Under the pieces are notes generated by a model that did no database searches, had not been told where the DNA came from, and was given only the letters and a program-made list of their open reading frames with translations. Both the position numbers and the translations under genes were made by a program. A stretch of DNA of 64,000 bases from an uncultured Flavobacteriaceae bacterium (lineage in GTDB: Bacteria > Bacteroidota > Bacteroidia > Flavobacteriales > Flavobacteriaceae): positions 310,001 to 374,000 of the forward strand of contig CANNAN010000004.1 in the NCBI GenBank assembly GCA_947502635.1. Direction: 5' to 3'. Every line of letters starts with the position of its first letter. Position 1 is the first letter of the stretch. Shown piece after piece: positions 3,424 to 60,926 of this stretch.

Positions 3424-4398
3424 TTAATGTGACAGAATTTTGTTTGATACCTTAATCATGTCCGATATTTGAACCTTAGTACCTGTAATAAACTTGTTTG
3501 GTAATTTTAATGTATTAATCTCTCCAGTTGTTCTTAAAAATCGTTTCTGATCTGGTAATTGGTATATAGGTGTTGATTTTTTCCACAAACCAATCAGTGA
3601 TTTAATATCTTCATTTTCAGTAGCTATATTCAAGGCTGAATCTAAATTCTTCTTTATCTCATTTGTTTCATCCTTGATTAAATCTGATTTTATGTTTAAT
3701 GACTTGTCCTCAGACAAATAATAATTCAAAAAATCCAATCTAATTGCCGCTGAATTCATTAGAATACTGTGTTTCTGTTCTTTTGAGAGGTTAATTTTTC
3801 TCATTTGTTTTATAAGATTGGTTTCACTTGAGGTAAGTAACTCCCAAGGAAAATCAATCTCTTGATTCACATTAAAATTACTTCTATCGAACTCATAGTC
3901 ATTAAAAGTCATGTCAAATGCCTGCTGAATGTTCTCAGAAATTAAAAACCGCACAAAAAATAATTTTGAAACAATGTTTGCCAGATGTGATGGTACTTTT
4001 TTATTACTAGCAATAACCACTTTCACCTTATTGTCAATTAGCTTTTTTCCAATAGATAAAGAATCACAACTACCTAAATAAACCATTTGTAAAGCATCTA
4101 ATATCCTCGAATCATTAAACAAACCCACAAATACATCTGTGGGAACATTTCCGTCTGAAAGCTCAATTTGATTTTCATCCGAATGACCACTGAAGTAGAA
4201 TAGCCAAGGCAAGATTTTATTATCCCTAAAACGATTAAGAATTGATTTTTTGGTTACAAATTCATCAGTACGTAAGATAACTTGTCCTTCATTCTCATGT
4301 GCTTCAAAGATAGACTTCATATTCATGATATCTTCTCTCACATAATTTCCTATGGTCTTGTCTCCAGATAATCCAGCGATATAAACTAAACGTTTCAT
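3424..4398 (-). CDS. CHAT-type caspase-like protease
   Basis: A 324-residue protein with no signal peptide. The N-terminal half (1-~185) fits a CHAT/caspase fold: strand MKRLVYIAGL, then a histidine in LFYFSGHSD (His72) and a cysteine in MVYLGSCDS (Cys111), the expected His-Cys dyad. Residues ~190-324 are mostly helical and unrecognised; they may be an adaptor or substrate-recognition region. The ATG follows the stop codon of the caspase-subtilase gene with one base between (TAA-T-ATG), so translation is probably coupled and the two proteins are likely partners. CHAT proteases are common effectors in bacterial conflict and programmed-death systems; the role here is inferred from that and from context. 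The last gene of its operon, it converges on the kelch gene. Confidence 0.75.
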   Translation of the reverse strand: MKRLVYIAGLSGDKTIGNYVREDIMNMKSIFEAHENEGQVILRTDEFVTKKSILNRFRDNKILPWLFYFSGHSDENQIELSDGNVPTDVFVGLFNDSRILDALQMVYLGSCDSLSIGKKLIDNKVKVVIASNKKVPSHLANIVSKLFFVRFLISENIQQAFDMTFNDYEFDRSNFNVNQEIDFPWELLTSSETNLIKQMRKINLSKEQKHSILMNSAAIRLDFLNYYLSEDKSLNIKSDLIKDETNEIKKNLDSALNIATENEDIKSLIGLWKKSTPIYQLPDQKRFLRTTGEINTLKLPNKFITGTKVQISDMIKVSNKILSH

Positions 4399-4399
4399 A

Positions 4400-7951: not shown

Positions 7952-8051
7952 CTATTTTATGTTTAAATAATCATACTATTGATGCAAGTTAATGTATTGG
8001 ATTGAATATTACAAAACTATAGAGTCTTAATTTTATGTTTTTAGTAATTAT

Positions 8052-8213
8052 TTCCATCCCATACACATTCCCACTACGCTCAGGACAGGCTAGCTCGGGC
8101 AAAGCGTATTCCATTACATTTTTAAAGAAATTTTTAAGAAGAAAAAATCAAAGAAAAGTAGGTAAAAGAACTTCGCTTTTACCAAAATAAATTGCACATA
8201 AAGCAAAACATTA
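8052..8213 (+). repeat. Dispersed intergenic repeat, copy 4
   Basis: Carries the family landmarks plus a short insertion in the centre (CTCAGGACAGGCTAGCTCGG) before CAAAGCG/TATTCCATTACATTTTTAA. The same CAGGACAGGCT insertion is visible in the degenerate copy near 39710. The 3' part, CTTTTACCAAA and CACATAAAGC, is recognisable. Confidence 0.75.
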
Positions 8214-8319
8214 TATAAAACTGATTTATTAACTATTGCTAGTTGTTTTAGCCAAAGTTTATGAGGCCACTTTGCCAACGTTTAATCTGGATAAAAATGC
8301 AAGCTCTATTTACATATAG

Positions 8320-8348
8320 TTTGTCAATTAATAAAATTAATATATTGC
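8320..8348 (+). promoter_or_regulatory. Candidate Bacteroidota promoter of AraC gene
   Basis: TTTG (8320-8323) and TATATTGC (8341-8348) are 17 bp apart. They resemble the phylum's -33 TTTG and -7 TAnnTTTG boxes, with two mismatches in the last two positions of the -7 box. They are placed ~50 bp before the start codon. Confidence 0.35.
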
Positions 8349-8398
8349 ACTTTTAATATTAATATTTTCTTGAGCTAAAAACTTACTTCCTTTTAATT

Positions 8399-9547
8399 AT
8401 GAGTTTATTATTTACCATAGGTTTTGTTATTTCTTTATTAGTAGTTATTGTTTTAATGAGAAGAGAGGAATTATTTATTCCTCACAAGTTTGCTATTGGT
8501 ATATTACTGCTTTGGGCTATTCGTTTCCTTTTATTCTATGCAAAAGAGAATTACGACCTATCTTCTGTGCCTTTACTTTATATTATAGACCAAAATTTTT
8601 TCTTTTTAGATGGTCCTTTATTATTACTTTATACAAATTCACTTGGAAATGTATCTATAAAACTAAAAAAGGTTTGGTTCCACTTTGTACCATTTTTTAT
8701 GGCCTTATTACTTACTCTTTATACGTATGCAATGATTTCAGACGAGCTGTTAAACTCAATTTATCAAGATGCTTCAAACCAATTAGAAGAGCAAACATTT
8801 ATACCTTCATTTTCTGAAGTTGTTTTTATCACTTTTATAATAATTCATAATATTATCTATGCTATAATATCACTCAAAAAAGTGAGAGTATATAGAAAAG
8901 CGATTTTAGATAATCTTTCTACAATAGCCAAAGCAAGCGTAGATTGGCTTTCAAAATTCATCAAAGCTTGGATTATTTTATTGGTTGTTCCTTTAGTAAT
9001 TTATTTTGCTAATTATATATATCCTATTGTCGATGTAGAGTATTTAGAAACCTTATTTATTACTTCATTAACTCTTTCAGCTTTTTATTTTGGAATCAAT
9101 CTTATCGAACAAAGATATGTTAGATTGTTTCAGAATATAGAATCTTCATCAGAAGAAACTAATATTTTAAATGATGTAACTACCGTTGATAATAAAAAAG
9201 AGCTTACTATAAAAGACAAAGAAGACTTTAAGAAAGTGATTTCTTTTATGGAGACAAATAAACCATATCTTGAGGTCAATTTAACACTAAATAAGCTCGC
9301 TAAATATTTAGAAATTAAGCCAAATAAGCTTTCTTATTTAATCAATAATAATACAGAAGGAAATTTTTACGACTTTATAAATGGATATCGTATCAAAGCT
9401 ATAAAAAAGGATTTGATAGAAACAAACGAGCAGATAATCCTTATTGCTTATGATAACGGATTCAATTCTAAATCTACTTTTAACGAAGTTTTTAAAAAAA
9501 ACACAGGATTAACACCCTCTCAATTTCGTAGGCAACATACTAGATAA
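8399..9547 (+). CDS. Membrane-sensor AraC-family transcription regulator
   Basis: 382 residues. Residues 1-~235 contain about seven hydrophobic segments (for example LLFTIGFVISLLVVIVLM, FHFVPFFMALLLTLYTYAM, IILLVVPLVIYFANYIYPIV), forming an integral-membrane input domain. A soluble linker leads to a C-terminal HTH_18/AraC domain (~285-382) with LTLNKLAKYLEIKPNKLSYL, the core signature ILIAYDNGFNSKSTFNEVFK, and the closing GLTPSQFRRQ. This architecture is common in Flavobacteriia and senses an unknown cue at the membrane. The likely target is the adjacent aspartyl-protease gene 139 bp downstream, with inverted repeats between them. Confidence 0.88.
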   Translation: MSLLFTIGFVISLLVVIVLMRREELFIPHKFAIGILLLWAIRFLLFYAKENYDLSSVPLLYIIDQNFFFLDGPLLLLYTNSLGNVSIKLKKVWFHFVPFFMALLLTLYTYAMISDELLNSIYQDASNQLEEQTFIPSFSEVVFITFIIIHNIIYAIISLKKVRVYRKAILDNLSTIAKASVDWLSKFIKAWIILLVVPLVIYFANYIYPIVDVEYLETLFITSLTLSAFYFGINLIEQRYVRLFQNIESSSEETNILNDVTTVDNKKELTIKDKEDFKKVISFMETNKPYLEVNLTLNKLAKYLEIKPNKLSYLINNNTEGNFYDFINGYRIKAIKKDLIETNEQIILIAYDNGFNSKSTFNEVFKKNTGLTPSQFRRQHTR

Positions 9548-9686: not shown

Positions 9687-10910
9687 ATGAAAAATATTTT
9701 AAAATTTACAGGGATTTTATTTTTATTTATTACGACATCTTGCGCTCAAGCTCAAGATGAAAAAATGGTTGAGGCCTCTATAAAAGCATTAGAAAAAGGG
9801 CTTATTGAAGGCGATTATAACACTTTTAAAAATTATCTTTCTATGGACTTTAAAGCAGGCTCATACCCTGCTTCTGTTTCAGACCAGGTTTTACCACAAG
9901 TATTATCACAATACCCTAAACTGAAATCATTACAAGTACTTGAAATAAAGGATAATGTAGCTGAAATTGAATATGAATTTACTGATGGCAAAGAAGTGTC
10001 TACGGTGTCTTTTGATGATAAAGGAAAGATAAAAAACATTCAATTTATAGATGATGTGTTAGTCGTTTCAGAAGTAGCACAGTCTACAAGTGCATTTTCG
10101 ACAATAACGTCTTTTACAACGCCTTTCAATTTAGTGGGCGGACTTATTTTTGTAAAAGCAAAACTCAATGGAAAAGAAGAAAATTTTATCATTGATAGTG
10201 GAGCTCCTGTTATGGTGTTAAACACAGCACATTTTGATAATGGGACTAACAATGGAGAGGCTATGGGGGTTTCTGGAAGTACAGCTACACAATCTGTACC
10301 TATTAAAAATTTTGATTGGAACGGAATGAATGTTTCTGATACCGAAGTTTTAGGAATGGATCTAAGTCATCTTGAAGAAGCTACAGGAGAAAAATTTGCA
10401 GGATTAATAGGGCATTCATTATTGCAGGATTATGAGCTATTGATTGATTATAAAAAGAAAAAACTGTTACTATTTAGCCCTGGCGAAACTAAATATCATA
10501 CAGAAGTAAAACCATCACAAATAATACCATTTAACTATGAAGCTCACATACCAGTAATTCAAGCTAAAATAAACGACGTAGATTATAAGCTAGGACTTGA
10601 TACTGGAGCTGAAGCCAATTTACTCGATATTCCAGATTTCGAGAAACTTGATAAATCTTCCTATAAATTGTTAGGAAATGGAGAATTATCAGGAGCAGAT
10701 AAAGGAATTAAAGACGTATCAAGTTTCGAAATAAAAAACACAATAATTTCAGATAGTAAATTTGAAAACATGGATTTTATATCTTCTGATATTTCACATC
10801 TTAATAATGGATATGGATTACAACTTAATGGTCTTTTGGGATTCCCATTTTTATCAAATGGTAAAGTTTCCATAAATTTCTTTGAGCAAAAGATTAATTT
10901 TTGGGAATAG
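9687..10910 (+). CDS. Exported double retropepsin-like aspartyl protease
   Basis: 407 residues with a signal/lipobox (LFITTSCAQAQ). Residues ~25-125 resemble a small DUF3887/NTF2-like alpha+beta domain (MVEASIKALEKGLIEGDY...). Residues ~145-405 contain two retropepsin-type halves: ENFIIDSGAPVMVLN near residue 175 (Asp-Ser-Gly) and YKLGLDTGAEANLLD near residue 310 (Asp-Thr-Gly). The two halves could give a pseudo-dimeric, pepsin-like active site in one chain. The family is often annotated 'aspartyl protease' in Bacteroidota, with little functional information. It is the likely target of the upstream membrane-sensor AraC regulator. Confidence 0.75.
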   Translation: MKNILKFTGILFLFITTSCAQAQDEKMVEASIKALEKGLIEGDYNTFKNYLSMDFKAGSYPASVSDQVLPQVLSQYPKLKSLQVLEIKDNVAEIEYEFTDGKEVSTVSFDDKGKIKNIQFIDDVLVVSEVAQSTSAFSTITSFTTPFNLVGGLIFVKAKLNGKEENFIIDSGAPVMVLNTAHFDNGTNNGEAMGVSGSTATQSVPIKNFDWNGMNVSDTEVLGMDLSHLEEATGEKFAGLIGHSLLQDYELLIDYKKKKLLLFSPGETKYHTEVKPSQIIPFNYEAHIPVIQAKINDVDYKLGLDTGAEANLLDIPDFEKLDKSSYKLLGNGELSGADKGIKDVSSFEIKNTIISDSKFENMDFISSDISHLNNGYGLQLNGLLGFPFLSNGKVSINFFEQKINFWE

Positions 10911-11082
10911 TATAAAAAAATCCGTAATTATATCCCTTGTATAAACTATATACGCCCAATAAGTAGACCTATACTCCAATAAAGAGAAATTGTAGTATTA
11001 CTCCATTAATATATTGGGTCATTCTAAATTCTAACCAAATATAAATGACTTATTTAGGCAAATACTCGCAAATAAAGAGTTC

Positions 11083-48904: not shown

Positions 48905-50332
48905 ATGAAAATATATAGCTTATTATTTATTCTAATGTCTACAATATTTATTGCTTCTGGTCAAGTAACCAAAAGTAGTGCAACGTTGCGTTTAGAAAAA
49001 TATAATCAAGATAATGATTGTAGTGTGACCATACCTAATAATCCTGAATGGAATATAGCCTTTGATCGCTTTAACTTACAAGGTGATTTAGCACCTAATG
49101 TTACATATACTAGACGAGATCCTAGTTCTGTTTTAAAAGTAGATGGTAAGTACTATGTTTGGTATTCTTATAGTTTGACAAATGGTGCAGGTAAAACGGC
49201 TCCCTGGGATTTTAACGACCTTTATTATGCGAGCTCTTCAGATGGTTATTCTTGGGAAGAACACGGGGCTGCTGTAGAAAGGGGGCCTGCAGGATCGTTT
49301 GATCACCGTTCTGTTTTTACAACGGAAGTTTTTTATCATGAGGGTACCTTTTATTTAATATATCAGGCAGCAGCAAATCAAGCAGGTGTTTATGGTGAAA
49401 ATACTATTGCAATGGCGTATGCGACTTCTCCTCATGGACCATGGACAAAATTAGATGCACCTGTTTTAGAACCAACAGATACTAACGGAGCTGCCTTTGA
49501 TCAAAATGCAGTACACGATCCTTGTCTAATCTTTTTTAAAGATAAGTTTTATCTATACTATAAAGGTGAAGGTTCGGAAACACCTATTTGTGGTATTGGA
49601 GTTTGGGGTTTAAACAAACAAGTTAAATGGGGAGTAGCAATTTCTGATAACCCAACAGGTCCATTCGTAAAATCATCATACAATCCAATTACAAATACAG
49701 GGCATGAAGTATGTGTTTGGAATTCTGGAGAAGGCATTGCTGTTATGCTTCATCAGGATGGACCAGAATACGGTACGCTTCAATATGCCGAAGATGGTAT
49801 AAACTTTGAAATAAAAGGTCAGGTTAATGATTTTGTTTTAATGGATTATAGCTCTGATTATCCAGAAGCCGCAGGTCTTTATCGCCCAGTTAGCGATGAA
49901 GTTTCTCCAGTTTCAGGGGTGTCATGGGGGCTTTGTCATGTCTTAACTAGAGAACAAGGTCCGTTGTGGATGTATCTAAAAAGATTTGAAAATGTAGATA
50001 AACAATTTGTTATTGATGATGCTAATAATAATGGTATCGAACTAGGGTCTACACCACTTTCAACAGTAGATAGCACTGAAACTGATAACCAATTTAATAT
50101 TTACCCTAATCCAGTAAAAGATTTGATACATATAACAATTAAAGAGTCGAGTTCTTATTTCGTTGAAATTATATCTTTAGCTGGTCAAACCATAAAAAAA
50201 GATATTTACGAATCAAAAACTGGTAGTATAAATATTTCAGATTTGGGGGAAGGATTTTATATTCTAAAATTGGTAAATGCAAATAACAATAAGACTTACT
50301 ACAAAAGCTTTGTTAAAAGGAATCACATCTAA
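48905..50332 (+). CDS. GH117 glycoside hydrolase with T9SS type A C-terminal domain
   Basis: 475 residues; signal peptide LFILMSTIFIASGQ. Residues ~45-375 form a five-bladed propeller typical of GH117 (RRDPSSVLKVDGKYYVWYSY, DHRSVFTTEVFYHEGTFYLI, VHDPCLIFFKDKFYLYYKGE, WGVAISDNPTGPF). Known members are alpha-1,3-(3,6-anhydro)-L-galactosidases that finish agar-oligosaccharide breakdown. Residues ~398-475 are the type A sorting domain (FNIYPNPVKD ... GEGFYILKLV ... YKSFVK), so the enzyme is exported by T9SS, which is unusual for enzymes of the final, often periplasmic, step. No SusC/SusD pair or other agarase is nearby. Confidence 0.88.
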   Translation: MKIYSLLFILMSTIFIASGQVTKSSATLRLEKYNQDNDCSVTIPNNPEWNIAFDRFNLQGDLAPNVTYTRRDPSSVLKVDGKYYVWYSYSLTNGAGKTAPWDFNDLYYASSSDGYSWEEHGAAVERGPAGSFDHRSVFTTEVFYHEGTFYLIYQAAANQAGVYGENTIAMAYATSPHGPWTKLDAPVLEPTDTNGAAFDQNAVHDPCLIFFKDKFYLYYKGEGSETPICGIGVWGLNKQVKWGVAISDNPTGPFVKSSYNPITNTGHEVCVWNSGEGIAVMLHQDGPEYGTLQYAEDGINFEIKGQVNDFVLMDYSSDYPEAAGLYRPVSDEVSPVSGVSWGLCHVLTREQGPLWMYLKRFENVDKQFVIDDANNNGIELGSTPLSTVDSTETDNQFNIYPNPVKDLIHITIKESSSYFVEIISLAGQTIKKDIYESKTGSINISDLGEGFYILKLVNANNNKTYYKSFVKRNHI

Positions 50333-50661
50333 GTTTTATAAAAAAGAATCTATTGTAATAGGATTAAAACTTTTTAGTTAACAATATACCTTTTTATAGT
50401 ATAATAAAGTTTTATTCTAATCGACTTTCTTTAAAGATCATACAATACGTAATAAACCTACTCTTCATTTATTTGGTTTCTGGAGTATATTTTGTCTTGA
50501 TCACATTCTCGTTATATTTTTTTCGTTTGGTTTTATACATATTATAAAACCAAGCTTAATGAAATATGAAACAACTAAAAGAAATAGGTTGTGTAAAAAA
50601 TTGCACAACCTATTTCTTTGTTTTTAATAAAAATCCAAGAATATTCCTTTAATACTATTTA
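50333..50661. other. Convergent intergenic region
   Basis: 329 bp between GH117 and the AidA-family gene. It holds a bidirectional terminator at 50581-50616 and otherwise only AT-rich sequence. Confidence 0.6.
50581..50616. terminator. Bidirectional intrinsic terminator
   Basis: GAAATAGGTTGTG (50581-50593) and CACAACCTATTTC (50604-50616) form a perfect 13-bp stem with a 10-base loop. TTTGTTTTTA follows on the plus strand, and a run of A/T on the other side would serve the minus strand. It separates the convergent GH117 gene and the AidA/decarboxylase operon. Confidence 0.85.
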
Positions 50662-51210
50662 TTAATTAGTTGGAGCTGTCAAAGGAACGACATTAAGACT
50701 TGCTGTATCCAAATTTAAATATGATTTTATAGCTGGTGAATAAAAATTATCCAGTTCAAAAATTAATCTATATCTATATTTCCCTATAGGTAAATTTGGT
50801 TGTACACTACCTGCCCAATAATAAAAAACAGGTGGTTGTAAATAAGGTCTTCCTTTTTCTAAACTTCCATAAACTTTTAAGTTCTCACAAATTTTCTGTT
50901 GATATACTTCTCCGTTTTCATTAATAAACACAATGTTACTAATTCTAACTGTAGGATTATAAATAAAGGGGTTTGTTAACTGGTCAATATTAGTTGGATA
51001 CACTAACCAATTTAGTACTTGACCTTGTGTACATACTGTTTCCAAAGAATCTGTTCCTTTATTTATGCTATGAAAAGAATTATCCGACATATAAATTGAT
51101 CCTTCTAAAGATTGAGTTAGATTCGCTCTTTTAAAATCTATTACACTTACAATATTTAATTGAATGCCGTTTACAACTCCTGCAGTTATCTCTTTATTAT
51201 TATCATCCAT
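50662..51210 (-). CDS. AidA/PixA-family inclusion-body-type protein (paralogue 4)
   Basis: 182 residues from the ATG at 51210 (MDDNNKEITAGVVNG). A TTG 18 bp upstream overlaps the preceding gene and is less likely. The family core is visible: IVSVIDFKRANLTQSLEGSI, then YMSDNSFHSINKGTDSLETV, GQVLNWLVYP, ISNIVFINENG, and a C-terminal YRYRLIFELDN strand. AidA proteins are quorum-controlled in Burkholderia and Ralstonia, and PixA forms crystalline inclusions in Xenorhabdus; no molecular activity is established. It is the last of four paralogues ending the operon, 10 bp after the previous gene. Confidence 0.72.
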   Translation of the reverse strand: MDDNNKEITAGVVNGIQLNIVSVIDFKRANLTQSLEGSIYMSDNSFHSINKGTDSLETVCTQGQVLNWLVYPTNIDQLTNPFIYNPTVRISNIVFINENGEVYQQKICENLKVYGSLEKGRPYLQPPVFYYWAGSVQPNLPIGKYRYRLIFELDNFYSPAIKSYLNLDTASLNVVPLTAPTN

Positions 51211-51220
51211 AATATTTTTT

Positions 51221-51631
51221 TTAATCAATTGTTATTGGTTTTATACTCGGGCCTTCGTTTGTCGAAAAAATTGTTTTTTTATTTCCAACATAAAAATCAA
51301 TAGAATAAGAAACGGTATTCTTTGGAGCCTTAATGACTGTTGATTTCCAATACGATATATTTGTTCCTTCATAAAACGCCTTAACTGGTTCTTTTAAAAA
51401 GTTCTTATTTACTTTTATGTCTGAAATTTCGACATACGACTCTACTTCGAGGCCATAAGCACTCCAAATTAATTCGTCGCCTTTTTTAACTGCGGTTTCT
51501 AATAAAAATGTACCTTCATTACGCGATCCATTTAATTTATTAGTGTCCATTAAATGACCATTTTCTTCTAAAAAATTGTTAGACAATACAGCGACTACGT
51601 CTACTATTGCTCTTATACTTATAATACTCAT
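51221..51631 (-). CDS. AidA/PixA-family protein (paralogue 3)
   Basis: 136 residues, no signal peptide. The family layout is seen: ISIRAIVDVVAVLSNNFLEE, GHLMDTNKLNGSRNEGTFLL, KKGDELIWSAYGLE, VEISDIKVNKNFL, a WKSTV strand, and YSIDFYVGNKKT. Unlike PixA, it is not methionine-rich. It is 21 bp after paralogue 2 and 10 bp before paralogue 4. Confidence 0.72.
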   Translation of the reverse strand: MSIISIRAIVDVVAVLSNNFLEENGHLMDTNKLNGSRNEGTFLLETAVKKGDELIWSAYGLEVESYVEISDIKVNKNFLKEPVKAFYEGTNISYWKSTVIKAPKNTVSYSIDFYVGNKKTIFSTNEGPSIKPITID

Positions 51632-51652
51632 AGGATATTTGTATTTTGTTTA

Positions 51653-52477
51653 TTAAATAGGTAAATAAGAATCTGCGCCACCAGTAAATCCATTTTTCAT
51701 TTCTTCTCTAGAAATTAAAATAGAAGAATCGAATGTCATTTCTATTGGTTCCCAATAAGCTGACTTATTGTCTTCGGCCAGAACAAGATCGAATAGTGTT
51801 ACATGAACTGTATAGCTGTATTGGCCTTCAGTAGCTGTATTTACCGTAGCACACCAATACCAACCTTCGGTTGAAAAATTAGGTGACCCATACTGAGCTG
51901 GAAAAATAATCCCCAACTCTACAGCTTCTCCTGTAATGTTTGTAACAATTGGAGGAAGGTTGACAACATTATCGATATTGTCTTCTAATTTTTCTATTAA
52001 TTGACCTTTAGTATTAATTAAAGGTCGCTCTGATTTTCTTTTTATATAAGACTCATAATTTACATGTAGCCCTTTTGTCTTATGCTCTATTTCTTCTACC
52101 TGTGCTTTAACTAATAAGCTTACTTCTTCTTTTTTAGTTGTACTTTCTTTAGCATTATTAAATACGTTTTCATTTGCAGAATAAGCCAGGTTTTTTAAAA
52201 GTTGTTCGGTAGATTTATTTTTATAATGTGCTGCTTTTTGTACTGTTATAGGTAAATCGTTTATATCTATAGCTAACCAGTTCATTATATTCTCCCCTGC
52301 CTGACTTCCATCAAGCCAATACGTTCCATTTACTTTAGACACTAAAGCATTAGTTCCTTCATTTTTAGAACCAAAGTTTCTCATATTATCAATTAAGTAC
52401 AAATGATCGCTTAAGCTCTTTGTTTTTAAAGCTGCCTTTACGTCGATCATTATCATTATTCCGAATTGTTGACTCAT
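51653..52477 (-). CDS. AidA/PixA-family protein with long helical insertion (paralogue 2)
   Basis: 274 residues. The N-terminal family motif (IMIMIDVKAALKTKSLSDHL, YLIDNMRNFGSKNEGTNALV, GENIMNWLAIDIN) and the C-terminal family strands (EGWYWCATVNTATEGQYSYT, YWEPIEMTFDSS) are separated by ~110 residues rich in Lys, Glu and Asn (AHYKNKSTEQLLKNLAYSAN ... EEVSLLVKAQVEEIEHKTKG). That insertion looks helical and is absent from the other three paralogues. It may add a partner-binding or assembly segment. It is 26 bp after paralogue 1. Confidence 0.7.
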   Translation of the reverse strand: MSQQFGIMIMIDVKAALKTKSLSDHLYLIDNMRNFGSKNEGTNALVSKVNGTYWLDGSQAGENIMNWLAIDINDLPITVQKAAHYKNKSTEQLLKNLAYSANENVFNNAKESTTKKEEVSLLVKAQVEEIEHKTKGLHVNYESYIKRKSERPLINTKGQLIEKLEDNIDNVVNLPPIVTNITGEAVELGIIFPAQYGSPNFSTEGWYWCATVNTATEGQYSYTVHVTLFDLVLAEDNKSAYWEPIEMTFDSSILISREEMKNGFTGGADSYLPI

Positions 52478-52503
52478 AATTTTTAAATTAGATGGTTGAT
52501 AGA

Positions 52504-52926
52504 TTAATAGCCTAAAAAAGGCAAAATGGTTAATGCTGGTGTAATAATTTCTAATTCACTTTTTTCACCTTTACCTATTTGTAGTAGGATTTTATAATTG
52601 TAAGTAACTGGATTTACACCAATAAAAGGAACTTTTCCATTCCACACTAGAGTATCTAAATTTTCCGTTTCAGTCTTTGGAAAGTCAAAGAAATGATTAG
52701 ACTCAAATAAAACGTTTTTAATACTTACTGGAGTTTGTACATCAACAGCTTTTACTGTCCAATGAATCATTTGACCGTATGTACACCGCGTAACCAAATT
52801 TAAACTCCCTTTATTTTCACTACAATAAGGACTGTCGTCCACCATTAAGCAGTTCCCTTCTAAACTTTGTGCTACTAGAGCCCCAATGGAATCTACCATA
52901 ATAACTACATTTACTTGATTTGCCAT
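52504..52926 (-). CDS. AidA/PixA-family protein (paralogue 1)
   Basis: 140 residues. Typical family start VNVVIMVDSIGALVAQSLEG followed by NCLMVDDSPYCSENKGSLNL, GQMIHWTVKAVDV, SIKNVLFESNHF and the strand NYKILLQIGKGEKSE. No signal peptide or membrane segment, so it is probably cytoplasmic, as expected for inclusion proteins. First of four AidA-type genes, 18 bp after ligase 2. Confidence 0.75.
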   Translation of the reverse strand: MANQVNVVIMVDSIGALVAQSLEGNCLMVDDSPYCSENKGSLNLVTRCTYGQMIHWTVKAVDVQTPVSIKNVLFESNHFFDFPKTETENLDTLVWNGKVPFIGVNPVTYNYKILLQIGKGEKSELEIITPALTILPFLGY

Positions 52927-52944
52927 AATTTATAATCGTTTGTG

Positions 52945-54552
52945 TTAAAATTGATCTTTAATTAAAGGTGTCTTCCCTAATGGAGTTCTATATATATCTA
53001 GAGCATCCTTAATTACTACTTTTAATTGAAATTGATATTTACTCTTTTCTATGTATGCCTTATTAGCTTCCCAAGTATTAAATAGAGGTAGTGATTGTAT
53101 TAATGCATTAATAAAGAATTCATTTATGCTTTCTGGCTCTAGAACTTTAATTGCTACATTTAATTCATGTGGTGCTAAAGCCGAAACTAATAATGTGAGT
53201 ACTTTACTATCCCTATCATTTAAAAACTGAATTTCTATAGCCTGACTTTCTATATCAAGCCCCTCTTTATTTAAATCAGAAAATAAGGCGTCTTTTACTT
53301 TAACAGCCGAAAAATGAGAATCTCCTAGATGAATAATATCTCCACTTCTACCTTTAAACAAAAACTGATCTGTTTTTAACTCGGTGGTATTTTTTCTTTT
53401 TAACCGAACCATTCTATCTCCCAATCTGTATCTAATATTTGGAGCTTTATTAGCATGAAGTCTAGTGATTACCAATTCTCCTTCCTCACCTTCTTTTACC
53501 CATTTACCATTCTCATCTACAATCTCTATGAAATGTAAACCTGGAACAGAAGAAAGTGTTTTATTTTCCTCTTCTAACTGCAACCCTATAGTTTCTGCCT
53601 GAGTAGCAGCAAAATAACTTAGTATCCGCAATTGAGGGTATACTTCTTTTAAAATATTCTCTTGCTTTTTAGACAGAAGACCACTACCATACATTGCCAA
53701 TTTTAAACTATTCCTCTTTTCTTCACTTATTTCCTTTCCATACTCTGCTAATAAAGCAATACCAGAAGATGTAGAAACAATGGTCTTCTCGCCAGTATAT
53801 GACATCATATGATCATAAACTTTTAGGCTTAATGAACCTGCTCCCAAAAAATTGATATTAGGTATTTTCTGTAATACACCGCCAACCATAGTTCCACTAC
53901 TCCACATTTGACAATCTGCCAAGGTAGTGGCTACCCATTTGGGCTTGTCACTTGTAAAATATTTGTCAGTAATAAAATCACCCATAAATTTACCGGCAAT
54001 TTCATAAGTATCTTGCAACTCTTGAAGCCCATAAACGGTTTCCAAAGGAATACCTGTTGAGGTTCCTCCACTTGCTACAATTTCAAAGCCCCCTTTACTA
54101 AAAGGTACTACCATGCCTTCTCTTTTACCGTTAAAAGCCGCTACCATTGTCTCCTTATCTGTAAGAGGAATGTTTTGCCATTCTTCAAAATTTAAAGGCG
54201 CATTTTTTATACCAGCTGCATTCAATCTTTCTTTCCAAAAAGAATTCAAAAAAAGACTATTAGTCATTTGTTGTAACCTTCTTAAAATTAAAGCGTCCTG
54301 AATATTTGAATCTACTTCATGAAATGCCTTTCCTATTTCTTTTTCTATTATTTTTATTTTATCATAAAAACGAGGCAGTTCTATTACATCTTCAATACTA
54401 GAAGGTTTTAATTCTCCTTCTGGAATAATTTTTTCAATTAGCTGCATTTCACTTACAACCTTATTTTTAACATTTTTTTTCGGTGCCTTTTTTATTGTAG
54501 ATACCTCTTTAACTAAAGGGTTTACTGTAGATGTATTATTTTTAGTCTCCAT
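52945..54552 (-). CDS. Adenylate-forming (ANL, PaaK-like) ligase 2
   Basis: 535 residues; longer than PaaK (~430) because of an N-terminal extension of ~90 residues. ANL motifs: A3 phosphate loop VASGGTSTGIPLETVYGL, A5 SYFAATQAETIGLQ, A7 EGEEGELVITRLHANKAPNI, A8 hinge FKGRSGDIIHLGD, A10 YRTPLGKTPLIKD with catalytic Lys527. It activates a carboxylic acid with ATP; the acceptor may be CoA, an amine or a protein. Roughly half of its residues match ligase 1 over long blocks (for example WSSGTMVGGVLQKIP in both). It follows PLP decarboxylase 2 by 15 bp. Confidence 0.8.
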   Translation of the reverse strand: METKNNTSTVNPLVKEVSTIKKAPKKNVKNKVVSEMQLIEKIIPEGELKPSSIEDVIELPRFYDKIKIIEKEIGKAFHEVDSNIQDALILRRLQQMTNSLFLNSFWKERLNAAGIKNAPLNFEEWQNIPLTDKETMVAAFNGKREGMVVPFSKGGFEIVASGGTSTGIPLETVYGLQELQDTYEIAGKFMGDFITDKYFTSDKPKWVATTLADCQMWSSGTMVGGVLQKIPNINFLGAGSLSLKVYDHMMSYTGEKTIVSTSSGIALLAEYGKEISEEKRNSLKLAMYGSGLLSKKQENILKEVYPQLRILSYFAATQAETIGLQLEEENKTLSSVPGLHFIEIVDENGKWVKEGEEGELVITRLHANKAPNIRYRLGDRMVRLKRKNTTELKTDQFLFKGRSGDIIHLGDSHFSAVKVKDALFSDLNKEGLDIESQAIEIQFLNDRDSKVLTLLVSALAPHELNVAIKVLEPESINEFFINALIQSLPLFNTWEANKAYIEKSKYQFQLKVVIKDALDIYRTPLGKTPLIKDQF

Positions 54553-54567
54553 TATTTTACTGTTTAA

Positions 54568-56109
54568 TCAAAAGAGTGGGTTAATAATGTTATTACCTAT
54601 TTTTTTAATTTCGTCCAACAATATTTCAAAGTGTTTCATCTGAATTTTATGATTCATAAACACGACCCTTAATGCTGGTTCCTCGTCTATATTTACCTTA
54701 GAAATCAAAAAATTACCATTGGTTTTTAATTGATTTCGTATTCTTATTTGAAAATCTTTTGCGTAACCACTATCCATACCTTTAGGCTTATACCTAAAAC
54801 AAAGCATATTTGCTTCTGGTTCATGCAGTGTTTCAAAATCATAATCCATTAGTAAATGCTCATACGCTTGAGTAATAAGGTCACAGAGAAAATCAATTTT
54901 TTGCTCAAAAACCTTCGGCCCATAAAAAGCCCAAATACTCCATAAGTTCATAATCATAGGTCTTTTGGTGCATTCTATATTTTTTTTGGCACCATCATAT
55001 TTTGTATATTGATCTTCTTCTTTTTCAAAAACGTAACTTGCTTTTTGTTTAAAAGCCGACGTACTTCTGTTTTTATTCTTATAAAAAAGCATACTACAAG
55101 TCCCAGGAATAAACATCATTTTGTGAGCATCCCAAGTAATCGAATCTGCTTTTTCTATTCCTTTAAGCTTGTGTTTGTGTTTCTCTGATAATAAAAAGCT
55201 AGCGCCATGTGCACCATCAATATGAAGCCAACAGTCATTTTTCTTTGCTATTTCTGCTAATTCATTTATAGGATCAAAAGCTCCAACTCCTGTAGTACCT
55301 GCATTAGCAACAATACAAAACACCTTAAACCCGTCTTGTTTAGCTATTTCTAAAACTGGTTGGACGCTTTGAATATCCACTTGTCTTTTAGAGTTTATCG
55401 GTAACTTTATAATCTGTTGCTTATTAAATCCCAACATTTCCACTGTACGTATAACACTATAGTGTACTTCTTCACTTACTGCTATAGCTGGGACTTCTCC
55501 TTTTTTAATACTCGAAATTCCTTTCGACCAAAACTCTGGAAAATAATGATTTCTAGCAGATAACAAAGCTGTTAAATTTGCTAAAGACCCTCCTGAAGTC
55601 GTTACCATATCGTACTCTCCCTCTGGATAATTAATGAATTTATTTAACTCTTTAGCCATATAAACTCGTACAACACTAGGCAGTTGTGCTGCTTCATAAA
55701 AAGAAGAGGGCTGACTAAGCATTGAGCTTATAAAATCAAAAACTCCTGCCAAAGGAAATACGGATGAAAATTGTCTTCCCATATAACCTGGAGAGTTAGA
55801 TTGTATTCCAGTTTGAAGATATAAATCGATAATACGATTTAACTTATCTTTTGAGCTGTCATTTTCCTTAGAAGTCATTAAAGCATTTACCTCTTCTAAC
55901 AACTCAAGAGGCTTCCTAAGATCCAACCCATTTATTTCTTGTTGGCTTAGTTTTAAATACGTTTCTAATTTATTTATTATAATATTTGAATGCGCTTCAA
56001 ATAAAGTAGGATCAAATACCTCAAAACAATTTAACGAAGTTTTTTTTTCTTTTAATAACGTAGCCTGTCCATTTACTGTTAACTGATTATAATCTGTTAC
56101 GAATTCCAT
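54568..56109 (-). CDS. Group II PLP-dependent decarboxylase 2
   Basis: 513 residues of the aromatic/glutamate/diaminobutyrate decarboxylase family (PF00282). Stacking histidine in SEEVHYSVIRT (His216), Asp298 in WLHIDGAHGASF, and PLP lysine Lys330 in SITWDAHKMMF. The N-terminal ~95 residues are variable. It converts an amino acid to an amine; the substrate cannot be told from the sequence. It starts 2 bp after ligase 1. It is a paralogue of decarboxylase 1; shared blocks include YDM.TTSGGSLAN.TA and ECTKRPMIMNLW. Confidence 0.88.
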   Translation of the reverse strand: MEFVTDYNQLTVNGQATLLKEKKTSLNCFEVFDPTLFEAHSNIIINKLETYLKLSQQEINGLDLRKPLELLEEVNALMTSKENDSSKDKLNRIIDLYLQTGIQSNSPGYMGRQFSSVFPLAGVFDFISSMLSQPSSFYEAAQLPSVVRVYMAKELNKFINYPEGEYDMVTTSGGSLANLTALLSARNHYFPEFWSKGISSIKKGEVPAIAVSEEVHYSVIRTVEMLGFNKQQIIKLPINSKRQVDIQSVQPVLEIAKQDGFKVFCIVANAGTTGVGAFDPINELAEIAKKNDCWLHIDGAHGASFLLSEKHKHKLKGIEKADSITWDAHKMMFIPGTCSMLFYKNKNRSTSAFKQKASYVFEKEEDQYTKYDGAKKNIECTKRPMIMNLWSIWAFYGPKVFEQKIDFLCDLITQAYEHLLMDYDFETLHEPEANMLCFRYKPKGMDSGYAKDFQIRIRNQLKTNGNFLISKVNIDEEPALRVVFMNHKIQMKHFEILLDEIKKIGNNIINPLF

Positions 56110-56111
56110 AG

Positions 56112-57674
56112 TTATTCTTGGGGTTTTGAATCAAGAATATCTCTAAAAAACGGCACCTTGCCTACTTCTGTTTTATATATTAAAGAAGACTCTTTATCCA
56201 CAAATTTGATTTCAAACTTGTAGCCTATTTTTTCGATTGTATCTGGTTTTATAGAAGATTTACTATACAGCCCCATAGATGTAATTAGAGCATTTTTTAT
56301 GAGGTTTTGAACACCGTTTATCCCTAATCTGATGGCTAACATATACTCACAATCTGAAACATTATCGGTTATAATAAGCACAGATAATAGCTTTTCATCC
56401 CTTTTATTAACTATTTGCACATCAAGTGCATAATCCTCTAAATTTATAAAGTAGTAGTTTTTTAATTGTTTTTTGATATATTCATAAGTATTTAAAGCTG
56501 AAAATTGGTGATCTTCTAGATGAATTACATCACCACTTCTTCCTCTAAATTCAAATTGAAAAGCCTTTAATCCTTCCTCTTCTTTTATTGGCAGTCTTAT
56601 CGCTTTATCTCCTAATTTAAATCTGATAATTGGAGCTTCATTACAATGTAATCGAGTAACTACTAATTCGCCTTCTTCACCTTCCTTTACCCATTGCCCG
56701 TCTTCATCAACAATCTCAATAAAATGTAATGCTGGAACCGCTGTAAGGGTATCGTCGTTTTTGTCTAACTGAATAGCTATGGCTTCGGCTTGCGATGCTG
56801 AAAAATAACTTAAGATGTCTAAGTTTGGATATAACTCCTTTAATTCCTTTTGCTTCCTTTTAGGTAATAAACCACTACAATACAATGCTAAGCGCAAACT
56901 GTCTTTAGCTTCTTGCTTCATCTCAAGTCCAAATTCATGAAGCAAACTGATAGACTTTGTTATGCCTAGAAAAACTTTAGGACCTTCATAATCCATTATT
57001 AAATGATAGATTTTTTTATCGATAGGCCCTGAGGCAATATAATTAGTATCAGGAATTTTTTGCAATACACCACCTACCATAGTACCACTACTCCATAATT
57101 GAAAGTCTGCATAAGTCATAACGACCAAAGGAGTTGAATCTTCTTTTTTAAAAAATCTACTGAATAAATGATTCCCTATAAATTTTCCTGAAATATTATA
57201 GGTATCCTCCAACTCTTTCAATGAGTAAACCGTTTCTGAAGGTTCTCCCGTACTTGTACCTCCACTAGCTACAATTTCAAAACCTCCATGTTCTAAGGGC
57301 ACCACCATTCCTTTTCTATCACCAGTAAAGAAATCAATTGCCGTTTGCTTATCTGTTATTGGTAGTTTCTGCCAGTCTTCAAAATTTTGTGGTACGCCTT
57401 TTATATTACACTCTTTAAACCGTTGTTTCCACAATGGATTTAATTGTTGAATATTTATAATTTGCTGTAATCGTAATAAAACAATTTCTTGTTGTAGTGA
57501 ATATTCTAGAGCATCAAAAGAAGCTCCAAAAAACTGCTCGCATTGCTCTAATTTCTCATTAAATCTAGGCAATTTTATTACCTGATCGATCGACTTAGGT
57601 TTAAGTTGTGTAGCTGGATAAAGCTTCTTTAAAAATGCTTTATAATCATTACTTGGTTTTGTATTATTATCCAT
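56112..57674 (-). CDS. Adenylate-forming (ANL, PaaK-like) ligase 1
   Basis: 520 residues. A3 VASGGTSTGEPSETVYSL, A5 SYFSASQAEAIAIQ, A7 EGEEGELVVTRLHCNEAP, A8 FRGRSGDVIHLED, A10 YKTEVGKVPFFRD (Lys506). The N-terminal ~80-residue extension is also found in ligase 2. Its start overlaps the end of decarboxylase 1 by 8 bp, pointing to coupled translation and linked chemistry: one enzyme makes an amine, the other activates a carboxylate. Whether the product is an amide, a thioester or a protein adduct is unknown. Confidence 0.8.
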   Translation of the reverse strand: MDNNTKPSNDYKAFLKKLYPATQLKPKSIDQVIKLPRFNEKLEQCEQFFGASFDALEYSLQQEIVLLRLQQIINIQQLNPLWKQRFKECNIKGVPQNFEDWQKLPITDKQTAIDFFTGDRKGMVVPLEHGGFEIVASGGTSTGEPSETVYSLKELEDTYNISGKFIGNHLFSRFFKKEDSTPLVVMTYADFQLWSSGTMVGGVLQKIPDTNYIASGPIDKKIYHLIMDYEGPKVFLGITKSISLLHEFGLEMKQEAKDSLRLALYCSGLLPKRKQKELKELYPNLDILSYFSASQAEAIAIQLDKNDDTLTAVPALHFIEIVDEDGQWVKEGEEGELVVTRLHCNEAPIIRFKLGDKAIRLPIKEEEGLKAFQFEFRGRSGDVIHLEDHQFSALNTYEYIKKQLKNYYFINLEDYALDVQIVNKRDEKLLSVLIITDNVSDCEYMLAIRLGINGVQNLIKNALITSMGLYSKSSIKPDTIEKIGYKFEIKFVDKESSLIYKTEVGKVPFFRDILDSKPQE

Positions 57675-59205
57675 TTAATTTGAAGATTGTTTCGAAATTA
57701 TTGTTTGAAATTAAGTTTTGGCCTATTGTTTTTATCTCATCTAATAAATTTTCAAAATGGCCTATATTGATTTCATGATTCATAAAGACTACTCGCAGTG
57801 CAGTACTTCCCTGCACTTCTACTTTAGAAATAAAAAACTTTCCTTCTTCTTTAATCTTATCTCTAATAGCCATCTGGAAGTCTTCTCCTTTCTGGAATAC
57901 ATTATTCTTAGGCTTATACCTAAAGCATAGAATGTTCGTTTGTGGTTTATGGATAGTCTCAAAATCTGCTTCAGCATCAAGCACATGATAAGCATGTAAA
58001 GTCATATCACATAACCTTACTAACTTTTGAGCAAATATTTCTTTTCCATAAATAACCCACGGCACCCATAAATTCATAATCATAGGTCTTTTAGTACACT
58101 CAAAACTTGTCTCTCCACCATTAAAATCACTAGTTTCATTTTCAAAAATGTAACTAGCCTCATTATGGAATGTTTTTTTAGGGTTTTCTTTATTTTTATA
58201 AAATAGAAGCGTACATGCAGCTGGTAAAAACATTGTTTTGTGGGCATCTAACGTGAAAGAATCTACAAGTTCAATTCCTTTTAATCGTTCTCTTAATTTT
58301 TCAGAAACCAAAAAACTTCCTCCATGTGCGCCATCTACATGAAACCAATAATTTCTTTTTTGACATAACTTAGCTAAATCTTCAAGTGGGTCTATGGCTC
58401 CGATCGCTGTTGTTCCTGCCGTAGCTACTAAACAAAAAACGTGCAGGCCTGCATTTTCTGCATTATTTAATGCTATTTCTGCTTGGGACATACAAATTTG
58501 TCCATCATCGTTTATAGGCAAAGAAATTATTTGCTTTTCTCCAATCCCTAAAATACCAGCAGCTCTCTTTATTGAATAATGTGCATCTGAACTTATAGCA
58601 ATTGCTGGAAGTGATTTTGATGAATTTATATAGTTTGAAAAGTCTGGTATTTTGCAATTTCTAGCAGTTAATATTGCAGTAATATTAGCTAACGATCCAC
58701 CAGAGGTCGTTATCATATCATAGGTTCCAGATTCCCACCCTATAAATTTCCCAAATTCTTTTGCTATCGCTTTTTCTACCATACTGGGTAGCTGTGCCGA
58801 TTCATAAAATGAAGAAGGCTGACTCATCATAGAAGTTAACAAATCTGTTAATCCTGCTATAGGAATAACTCCTGAAAATTGTCTTCCCATGTATCCTGTT
58901 GAATACACTGGAATTCCAGTTGCAGCATACAAATCTATTATTTCTTCTAAAAGATCTAAATCTAATACATCTGAAGACTCGCTACACCTTTTAGAATAAT
59001 CAACTACTAACTCCATTAATTTATCAGGAGGCGAAAGCTGTAAACCTCGTGGCGTAGAATTAGAAATATTTTTTTTTAGCTTACTTATTGCTACCGAGGC
59101 TGCTCTTTTTAAAATATCAGGATCAAATGCATCTTGAAAATCTGTCGGAGAAATAGGCTCATCAATCAACTTAAGTTCAATATCGAGACTATCTATTGTA
59201 TACAT
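57667..59205 (-). CDS. Group II PLP-dependent decarboxylase 1
   Basis: 512 residues. The PF00282 fold is shown by His209 in SSDAHYSIKRA, Asp291 in YWFHVDGAHGGSF, and PLP lysine Lys323 in FTLDAHKTMFLP. TYDMITTSGGSLANITAILT is the phosphate-binding segment. First gene of the eight-gene operon. Its promoter region (59206-59572) holds two inverted repeats and is shared with the divergent sensor/regulator genes. The substrate is unknown; the family includes aromatic, glutamate, cysteine-sulfinate and diaminobutyrate decarboxylases. Confidence 0.88.
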   Translation of the reverse strand: MYTIDSLDIELKLIDEPISPTDFQDAFDPDILKRAASVAISKLKKNISNSTPRGLQLSPPDKLMELVVDYSKRCSESSDVLDLDLLEEIIDLYAATGIPVYSTGYMGRQFSGVIPIAGLTDLLTSMMSQPSSFYESAQLPSMVEKAIAKEFGKFIGWESGTYDMITTSGGSLANITAILTARNCKIPDFSNYINSSKSLPAIAISSDAHYSIKRAAGILGIGEKQIISLPINDDGQICMSQAEIALNNAENAGLHVFCLVATAGTTAIGAIDPLEDLAKLCQKRNYWFHVDGAHGGSFLVSEKLRERLKGIELVDSFTLDAHKTMFLPAACTLLFYKNKENPKKTFHNEASYIFENETSDFNGGETSFECTKRPMIMNLWVPWVIYGKEIFAQKLVRLCDMTLHAYHVLDAEADFETIHKPQTNILCFRYKPKNNVFQKGEDFQMAIRDKIKEEGKFFISKVEVQGSTALRVVFMNHEINIGHFENLLDEIKTIGQNLISNNNFETIFKLNG

Positions 59206-59572
59206 TTTTATTTATTATTAGTTAATATTAAATTTTGAAACGTAATTATTTTAAGGTTTTCTATAATCCTTTTATTGATAAACCAAACTTACTAGCTCTT
59301 TAAGCTAAATAGAAAACAAGTGTGTGAATAAACAGTTTACTTTAGTAAATGAATCTAATTATTGAGGGAAAGTATTTAGTAAAGTTTAATTGTATAATAT
59401 TTAATTATTTCATAAAGAACATGTAAGATTTATTACATATATTTAACATTAATTTTATTACAATAGTTAAGAATGATTTTATGGAGGTACTAGATAATAA
59501 ATCAGTGACCATTGATGAAATTACAGCTTATATTAAAGTTCTCTCAAAACATTAGAGATGAAAATTATATAA
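59206..59572. promoter_or_regulatory. Divergent control region of decarboxylase operon and regulator
   Basis: 367 bp without a convincing gene. TTTACTTTAGTAAA (59336-59349) is an inverted repeat, and its half TTTAGTAAA recurs at 59375-59383. ATGTAA (59421-59426) and TTACAT (59433-59438) form another inverted repeat. A 24-codon frame at 59481-59555 is too short to support. These repeats are candidate operators for the REC-LytTR regulator. Confidence 0.45.
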
Positions 59573-60152: not shown

Positions 60153-60926
60153 ATGAAACATTTATCCCCCAAAGTAAGAATACTTATTGTCGAAGATGAA
60201 ATGGTCTTAGCTCAAGATGTTTCATTAAGACTAGTAGATTCTGTATATGATGTAGTAGGAATTGTTGATAGCGCAGATAAGGCGCTTCAAATATTAAAAG
60301 AAGTTCCTGATGTACATATTATATTAATGGATATTATGATAAAAGGAGATCTAGATGGTATAGATCTAGCAAAATTAATAAACCAAAACTATAATATTCC
60401 TTTTATCTTTCTCACATCACATTCAGATACAAGTATTGTAGAGCGCGCTAAACAGGTAAACCCATACGCGTATCTTTTAAAACCATTTAATGATAGACAA
60501 ATAAGTATAGCTATTGAATTGGCACTAACTAATTTTTCAAAAAGAATGCCAGAAAAAAAACTATTAAAAGAACATGAATTTTCTAAAATTGAAAATAATA
60601 ATATATTGAAAATTAAAAACAATCTATTTCTTAAAAAGAATAACCGCTATGAAAGGGTTTCACTAGACGAGATACAATTTTTAGAAGCTGATAATAATTA
60701 TACCATAATACATACAAAATTTGATAAATTTTTATATTCTACAGTTTTAAAAAAAATAGAGGCACAATTACCTAATGATCTCTTTTTAAGAGTACACAGG
60801 AGTTATATGGTTAATATTAATGCAATTGCAGGATTTGAAGGAAATATGTTGTTTATAAATGATAAAAAAATACCTGTAAGCAAATCTAATCATAACCAGG
60901 TTTTTAATTTATTTGAAACCTTATGA
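60153..60926 (+). CDS. REC-LytTR response regulator
   Basis: 257 residues. The receiver domain (~8-125) has VEDE acidic residues, Asp phosphoacceptor in IILMDIMIKGDLDG, and Lys in YAYLLKPFNDRQ. After a linker with several lysines, the LytTR domain (~155-255) shows VSLDEIQFLEADNNYTIIHT and FLRVHRSYMVNINAIAGF. No kinase is encoded next to it. Divergent from the decarboxylase/ligase/AidA operon and therefore its best candidate regulator. Confidence 0.9.
   Translation: MKHLSPKVRILIVEDEMVLAQDVSLRLVDSVYDVVGIVDSADKALQILKEVPDVHIILMDIMIKGDLDGIDLAKLINQNYNIPFIFLTSHSDTSIVERAKQVNPYAYLLKPFNDRQISIAIELALTNFSKRMPEKKLLKEHEFSKIENNNILKIKNNLFLKKNNRYERVSLDEIQFLEADNNYTIIHTKFDKFLYSTVLKKIEAQLPNDLFLRVHRSYMVNINAIAGFEGNMLFINDKKIPVSKSNHNQVFNLFETL

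Follow-up and report, generated by a model that had tools for sequence, protein, structure and literature searches.

The locus described here raises the question of what pyridoxal phosphate (PLP)-dependent decarboxylases, adenylate-forming ligases of the ANL type and four small MakC/MakD-like proteins, here called Aids, do together in one operon. It lies in a window of 64,000 nucleotides from an uncultured Flavobacteriaceae bacterium (contig CANNAN010000004.1, positions 310,001 to 374,000), where eight open reading frames (ORFs) on the minus strand at 50662-59205 follow each other in the transcription order dec1, lig1, dec2, lig2, aid1, aid2, aid3 and aid4, with intergenic gaps of -8, +2, +15, +18, +26, +21 and -8 bp. 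The positions and the recomputed gaps, -8 to +26 bp, confirm the eight-gene operon proposed in an earlier analysis of the letters, the sequence-only reading. One decarboxylase, one ligase and aid1 to aid4 form a well-supported six-gene unit of fixed order, hereafter the cassette, and since the same gene order recurs across very different bacteria, the enzymes and the four Aids very probably work together on one common job. We give a probability of about 0.4 to the reading in which a small amide-type metabolite, made by the enzymes from an acidic amino acid, is bound, stored or handed on by the Aids. This reading is based on the synteny in 14 of 17 loci, the four Aid clades, the recurrence of the same seven plasmids, a gene fusion in Kordia and the conserved active-site letters.

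The 17 loci carrying this ligase subfamily comprise the window, nine loci obtained by scanning 84,980 species genomes with two short peptide patterns, four from a plasmid search that gave seven records (the other three, from B. elkanii, were left out) and three from genome sampling; given its patterns, the yield of the scan is a lower bound. The decarboxylase adjoins the ligase in all 17. In 14 of them (the window, L004-L011, L013-L016 and L038) aid1-aid2-aid3-aid4 follow the ligase in the same order and on the same strand, hence the co-occurrence is not peculiar to the genome of the window. The loci bearing the cassette are labelled Bacteroidota, Cyanobacteria, Actinomycetota and Alphaproteobacteria. 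Two loci (L012 and L039) lack Aids in the vicinity of the pair; the contig of L040 stops after the ligase.

Among 72,556 plasmid records, the ligase, aid1, aid3 and aid4 queries (aid2 was not queried) each matched the same seven, and the decarboxylase query matched those seven and Rhizobium lusitanum at 30.6% identity, where the flanking 17.4 kb gave no ligase or Aid match. This distant decarboxylase (L044, 7899-9467) stands beside transporter-like ORFs and is an outgroup case. The Aids fall into four clades with 97-100% bootstrap, each holding all 13 loci tested, which indicates that the Aid paralogues predate the spread of the cassette; the aid2 linkers were removed beforehand in 11 of the 13 rows and two rows were left whole, while L038-L040 stood outside all trees. 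The conserved letters differ from one Aid to the next. It is very improbable that enzymes and Aids share an operon and no function: the two loci with an enzyme pair and no Aids would suit such an arrangement, but the same order in four phyla, the four co-inherited Aid clades and the absence, in the plasmid collection, of any record with an aid1, aid3 or aid4 match and no ligase speak against it.

The Aids had been labelled AidA/PixA-type, a name that holds at the level of the fold and not at that of the family. None of the four matches the PixA family PF12306 (cut-off 21 bits) in the Pfam listing to E 1, whereas all match the NCBIfam model MakCD NF049870 at E 3e-10 to 2e-15, with 40.4-56.7 bits lying below the cut-off of 110. 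The AlphaFold2 model of aid4 (mean pLDDT, the predicted local distance difference test, 78.6) retrieved MakD (6.7e-9) and MakC (1.1e-8) by Foldseek, with 6tct and 8rqy as the best chains, and also PixA (4pib 4.3e-7, 4lzk 3.7e-6 and 4q52; PixA range 4e-7 to 2e-5). By this model the Aids would share the beta-sandwich fold of PixA, and they are nearer to MakD/MakC than to PixA both by sequence (NF049870) and by fold. The domain of aid2 is split by a linker, with pLDDT under 50 at residues 66-147, and its model (mean pLDDT 56.2), for which MakD and MakC were the top matches at values above E 0.001, was too poor for conclusions and was set aside as structural evidence. In a search of the whole genome of the window, the one genuine PF12306 gene was L001 (contig C1:125067-125576), away from the cassette. 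Its neighbours are a 157-aa ORF without a match and a response-regulator-like ORF with 31% identity to the one near the cassette.

The kinship to MakC/MakD brings in a different explanation. The Aids would be cytosolic proteins with an accessory or regulatory role, like that of MakC/MakD towards MakABE, and would influence how the product is expressed or released and not its chemistry. MakC and MakD of the Vibrio cholerae mak operon, the best match in sequence and fold, are likewise small cytosolic beta-sandwiches with several paralogues per operon. They act together with pore-forming proteins and form dimers in crystals, and MakC occurs in large complexes; deleting both reduces the levels of MakB and MakE and the release of MakA (PMC11484084). 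AidA genes of the PixA type are under quorum control and have links to the host (PMC3356288, PMC9060813, PMC10143992). The resemblance is limited by the setting, i.e., two proteins with pore-forming MakABE as against four with a decarboxylase and a ligase, and by 40-57 bits as against 110. No MakA, MakB or MakE pore-forming gene was recognised among the ORFs viewed beside the cassettes, flanks for which no profile search for such genes was made, and four separately conserved Aids exceed the needs of a regulator. We consider a purely accessory role doubtful, yet it deserves to be weighed.

The enzymes themselves look active, as had been proposed, judging by their conserved active-site and A3/A10 letters. 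The decarboxylases are 50% identical to each other and belong to the PLP group II family PF00282 (8e-51 for dec1, 1e-56 for dec2), and among solved structures they come nearest to GADL1, glutamate decarboxylase 1 and further group II decarboxylases. Both keep the PLP lysine, the aspartate at PLP-N1, the stacking histidine and the loop tyrosine; the first three are invariant in 20/20 aligned family members, the alignment having 21 rows, of which L009 is cut off at the PLP-residue region. The glutamine and serine that align with Q190 and S192 of GAD67 are constant in 20/20 and the arginine aligned with R567 in 21/21. The related chain 8zpi has different letters in the glutamine stretch. These constant residues favour an acidic substrate, short of proof. 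The likeness to GAD67, GADL1, CSAD and PanP thus covers the closest solved chains and models, the PLP residues, the loop tyrosine and the aligned Gln/Ser/Arg, but dec1 and dec2 differ in their tight unit with a ligase and in scoring far below the cut-off of every equivalog model (PanP TIGR03799, 177-179 of 606 bits). Dec1 had been suspected of being an aldehyde synthase with a Tyr-to-Phe change in the mobile loop; this idea was rejected because the numbering of the GAD chain puts the catalytic tyrosine in ASY(V/I)F, where it is kept in 21/21.

The ligases, 48% identical to each other, are assigned to the ANL enzymes by residues. The tested letters of the motifs A3, A5, A7 and A8 are the same in 21/21 ligases and the A10 lysine in 20/20, row L040 being cut off. 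Both score below every curated cut-off of Pfam and NCBIfam, PF00501 included, and the PaaK equivalog TIGR02155 gave 32.6 and 39.6 of 646 bits. The nearest solved structure is the phenylacetate-CoA ligase 4r1l (1.2e-8). With the PaaK-type enzymes they share the A3, A8 and A10 regions, and they differ in these scores, in their greater length and in the decarboxylase fusion in Kordia. There, at L006 11567-14707, dec2 and lig2 are a single 1046-aa protein with no internal stop, which supports direct cooperation of decarboxylase and ligase.

PaaK-type ligases usually activate aryl acids. It could be that the decarboxylase yields a plain amine, that the acid activated by the ligase is unrelated to it, e.g., aromatic or fatty, and that the product is an ordinary amide natural product for which the Aids serve as storage or carrier. 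The phenylacetate-CoA ligase as nearest solved relative and the further enzyme-like ORFs near the cassette of L007 agree with such a scheme, but the Gln/Ser pair shared with glutamate decarboxylase does not, and the dec2-lig2 fusion fits direct use of the product, yet is compatible with an unrelated acid as well. On balance we regard this scheme as unlikely.

Two decarboxylase-ligase pairs occur only in the window and in L004, L005 and L006; the general form has one pair. For either enzyme, the first copies form one clade and the second copies another (100/100), each comprising the window, two Tenacibaculum and one Kordia. The sequence-only reading had the module duplicated as a unit, but a common clade of both copies was rejected for the decarboxylase (approximately unbiased test, p-AU 0.008; the partial decarboxylase of L009 was excluded from this tree) and not for the ligase (p-AU 0.26). 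On these results, local tandem duplication is not established, and the second pair may come either from local duplication or from a second acquisition.

A hydrolase of the isochorismatase family (PF00857) is adjacent in seven of the 17 loci (L007, L012, L013, L014, L015, L016 and L039). A Pfam search with three of these hydrolases gave PF00857 at 1e-32 to 1e-36; the linked copies share with the cysteine hydrolases of this family the profile match and the aligned D, K and C positions. Six of them are 37-80% identical mutually, and the Nonomuraea copy has 28-36% identity with five of the rest. The one linked copy tested fell below the cut-offs for nicotinamidase, biuret hydrolase and RutB. Such a gene is missing beside the cassette of the window, whose genome has three PF00857 genes, all on other contigs; the C3 copy, the one compared, is 25-30% identical to the linked hydrolases.

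The two loci without Aids (L012, 5406-11503; L039, 8224-14330) represent an Acetobacteraceae subtype that consists of the decarboxylase-ligase pair, the hydrolase, a condensation-like protein and a regulator, which is DJ-1/AraC by Pfam in L012 and resembles it by eye in L039. The condensation-like protein, 43.9% identical between the two, has the motifs HHAITD and HHAIMD and owes its name to HHxxxD, the condensation motif. These loci speak for a chemistry that does not need the Aids, and the condensation-like protein in their place is a hint of a small molecule made by the enzymes and handled by the Aids.

The same loci bear on whether the Aids are acceptors, i.e., whether the ligase would attach a decarboxylase-derived group to their side chains and so build a modified or cross-linked protein particle. 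The fixed pairing of enzymes and four Aids in 14 of 17 loci would fit, as would the resemblance of the aid4 model to SO1698 (3njm, Foldseek 1.6e-4), a self-cleaving protein with a Lys-Asp link. Against this stand the two loci, L012 and L039, whose enzyme pair has no Aids beside it, the absence of any aid4-profile match at E 1e-4 in the L012 genome, and the lack of an identified acceptor residue common to the four Aids, the nine columns invariant across the four in the window including no lysine. Acceptor Aids are thus improbable, and since the enzyme pair exists without them, it is unlikely that they are an obligate substrate of the enzymes. The sequence-only proposal is supported in its link between enzymes and Aids and in its active-looking enzymes; the two related amides or conjugates, which the Aids would store, bind or carry attached to them, are a hypothesis.

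The preferred reading, a small amide-type metabolite handled by the Aids, can be set out as follows. The decarboxylase would convert an acidic, glutamate- or aspartate-like amino acid into an omega-amino acid such as gamma-aminobutyric acid or beta-alanine. The ligase would adenylate a carboxylate, most simply that of the decarboxylase product itself, and pass it on to give the amide-type metabolite, which the hydrolase, where linked, might cut or recycle. The four Aids, as beta-sandwiches of the MakC/MakD type, would assemble in the cytoplasm into one hetero-oligomer for binding, storing or handing on the activated product, a part that in the two Acetobacteraceae loci would fall to the condensation-like protein. 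In the window, the two enzyme pairs may give two related products for a single set of Aids. A more elaborate form, with a novel type of protein-metabolite particle, seems to us distinctly improbable: activated omega-amino-acyl units would be polymerised on or attached to the hetero-oligomer of Aid1-4, the resulting store inside the cell, a polyamide or conjugate, could be opened by the linked hydrolase, and the second pair in the window would add a second monomer.

Several points weigh against the preferred reading. The arginine is not specific, as it also occurs in chains that are not acidic-amino-acid decarboxylases; the DABA and PanP models of NCBIfam give scores that lie close to each other; and PF00282 enzymes switch substrate easily. 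The GADL1 paper describes substrate determinants as difficult to identify (PMC5947694). The hydrolase is unlinked in 10 of 17 loci, some on contigs too short to tell, and the condensation-like protein has no match in Pfam, NCBIfam or PDB. One complex of four Aids is suggested by their fixed number alone, and substrate, product and complex are all predictions from sequence.

Table 1. Features of the operon in the window and the evidence for their assignment
Feature	Position	Strand	Evidence
dec1, PLP (group II) decarboxylase, 512 aa	57667..59205	-	PF00282 8e-51; nearest solved chain mouse GADL1 6enz; catalytic residues
lig1, PaaK-like ANL (adenylate-forming) ligase, 520 aa	56112..57674	-	Weak PaaK-type NCBIfam matches; PF00501 0.0031, below cut-off; A3/A10 conserved
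dec2, PLP decarboxylase, 513 aa	54568..56109	-	PF00282 1e-56; nearest solved chain glutamate decarboxylase 1, 3vp6, 1.3e-59
lig2, PaaK-like ANL ligase, 535 aa	52945..54552	-	Nearest solved chain phenylacetate-CoA ligase 4r1l, 1.2e-8; fused to dec2 in Kordia L006
aid1, MakC/MakD-like, 140 aa	52504..52926	-	NF049870 8.5e-15, below cut-off; own clade 98/91
aid2, MakC/MakD-like, 274 aa	51653..52477	-	NF049870 2.6e-10 over residues 7-49; own clade 100/100
aid3, MakC/MakD-like, 136 aa	51221..51631	-	NF049870 2.3e-15; PDB 8rqy 4.3e-9; MakD 6tct 1.4e-4; own clade 100/98
aid4, MakC/MakD-like, 188 aa	50662..51228	-	NF049870 4.3e-11; AlphaFold2 pLDDT 78.6; Foldseek MakD 6.7e-9; own clade 97/96
19-pair hairpin, likely operon end	50578..50619	.	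Between aid4 and convergent plus-strand gene 48905-50332
Region upstream of dec1, 367 bp, presumed operon promoter	59206..59572	-	Position only

The hairpin behind aid4 scored as terminator-like on the plus strand, with no terminator call on the minus strand, in a scan that found 6 against 3.6 expected (standard deviation 1.9), and it is the likely end of the operon. A sigma-70 scan, uninformative for Bacteroidota, stood at chance (39 sites against 43.7 expected). The start codon of aid4 is TTG, with an in-frame ATG six codons inside. A promoter of the Aids' own, raised as an objection in the sequence-only reading, does not fit the window, where aid1 begins 18 bp after lig2, but the gap before aid1 measures 247 bp in L005 and, with an extra ORF between ligase and aid1, 1286 bp in L007, so that a separate promoter is possible in these two loci. 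L009 has a single gap of 314 bp within the cassette. Extra ORFs of L007, a metagenome-assembled Crocosphaera genome, lie at 4097-4639, 7983-8435 and 9914-10972; one is the unmatched ORF between ligase and aid1, one is SnoaL-like and one weakly alanine-dehydrogenase-like.

The cassette is rare. The ligase was not found in 396 other genomes of the family of the window, two of the same genus included, and the samples, in each of which the starting genome is counted, gave 1/397, 1/395, 2/82, 2/318, 2/150, 1/295 and 2/244 at E<=1e-20 or 1e-40. The loci nearest to the window are those of Tenacibaculum and Kordia, with enzymes 66-73% identical. Its scattered presence in four phyla, with the gene order unchanged, suggests that the cassette probably spread by horizontal transfer; three of the loci, L007, L009 and L010, are metagenome assemblies. 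Four cassette-bearing B. elkanii plasmids were typed as conjugative and one B. barranii plasmid as mobilizable. The cassettes of L014 and the other B. elkanii plasmids are located among transposases on plasmids of root-nodule Bradyrhizobium. Carriage by phages or other viruses was considered and dropped, the patterns used finding no relative of the ligase or aid4 in viral contigs.

Apart from response-regulator-like proteins of L004 and L005 (18-28%), nothing at the other loci matches the ORFs that flank the cassette in the window. The response-regulator-like ORF of the window (60153-60926, LytTR type by eye) is 18-20% identical to similar ORFs near the Tenacibaculum cassettes (L004, 7380-8090; L005, 7373-8089). 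Other neighbour clusters look, by eye, like shadow ORFs of cassette genes, mobile elements or one AraC-like pair (L008, L012).

No description joining Aid-type proteins to a decarboxylase and a ligase was found in open PubMed Central papers. The PixA/AidA inclusion-body proteins share with the Aids the fold-level similarity of the aid4 model and the occurrence of paralogues, there in pairs, but they match PF12306 and, in the literature covered, are usually encoded by one or two genes and without these enzymes. Unless its function proves otherwise, the cassette is a biosynthesis-like operon with an unprecedented set of protein partners. Proteins of the PixA/AidA/MakCD type have been connected with inclusion bodies, with quorum sensing and with interactions with a host. 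The cassette links four of them, invariably the same four, to two assayable enzymes, and identifying the product of these enzymes would for the first time give biochemical access to the ligands or activity of Aid-type proteins. Should the Aids form a defined hetero-oligomer around a metabolite, this would be a new bacterial way of storing or moving a small molecule.

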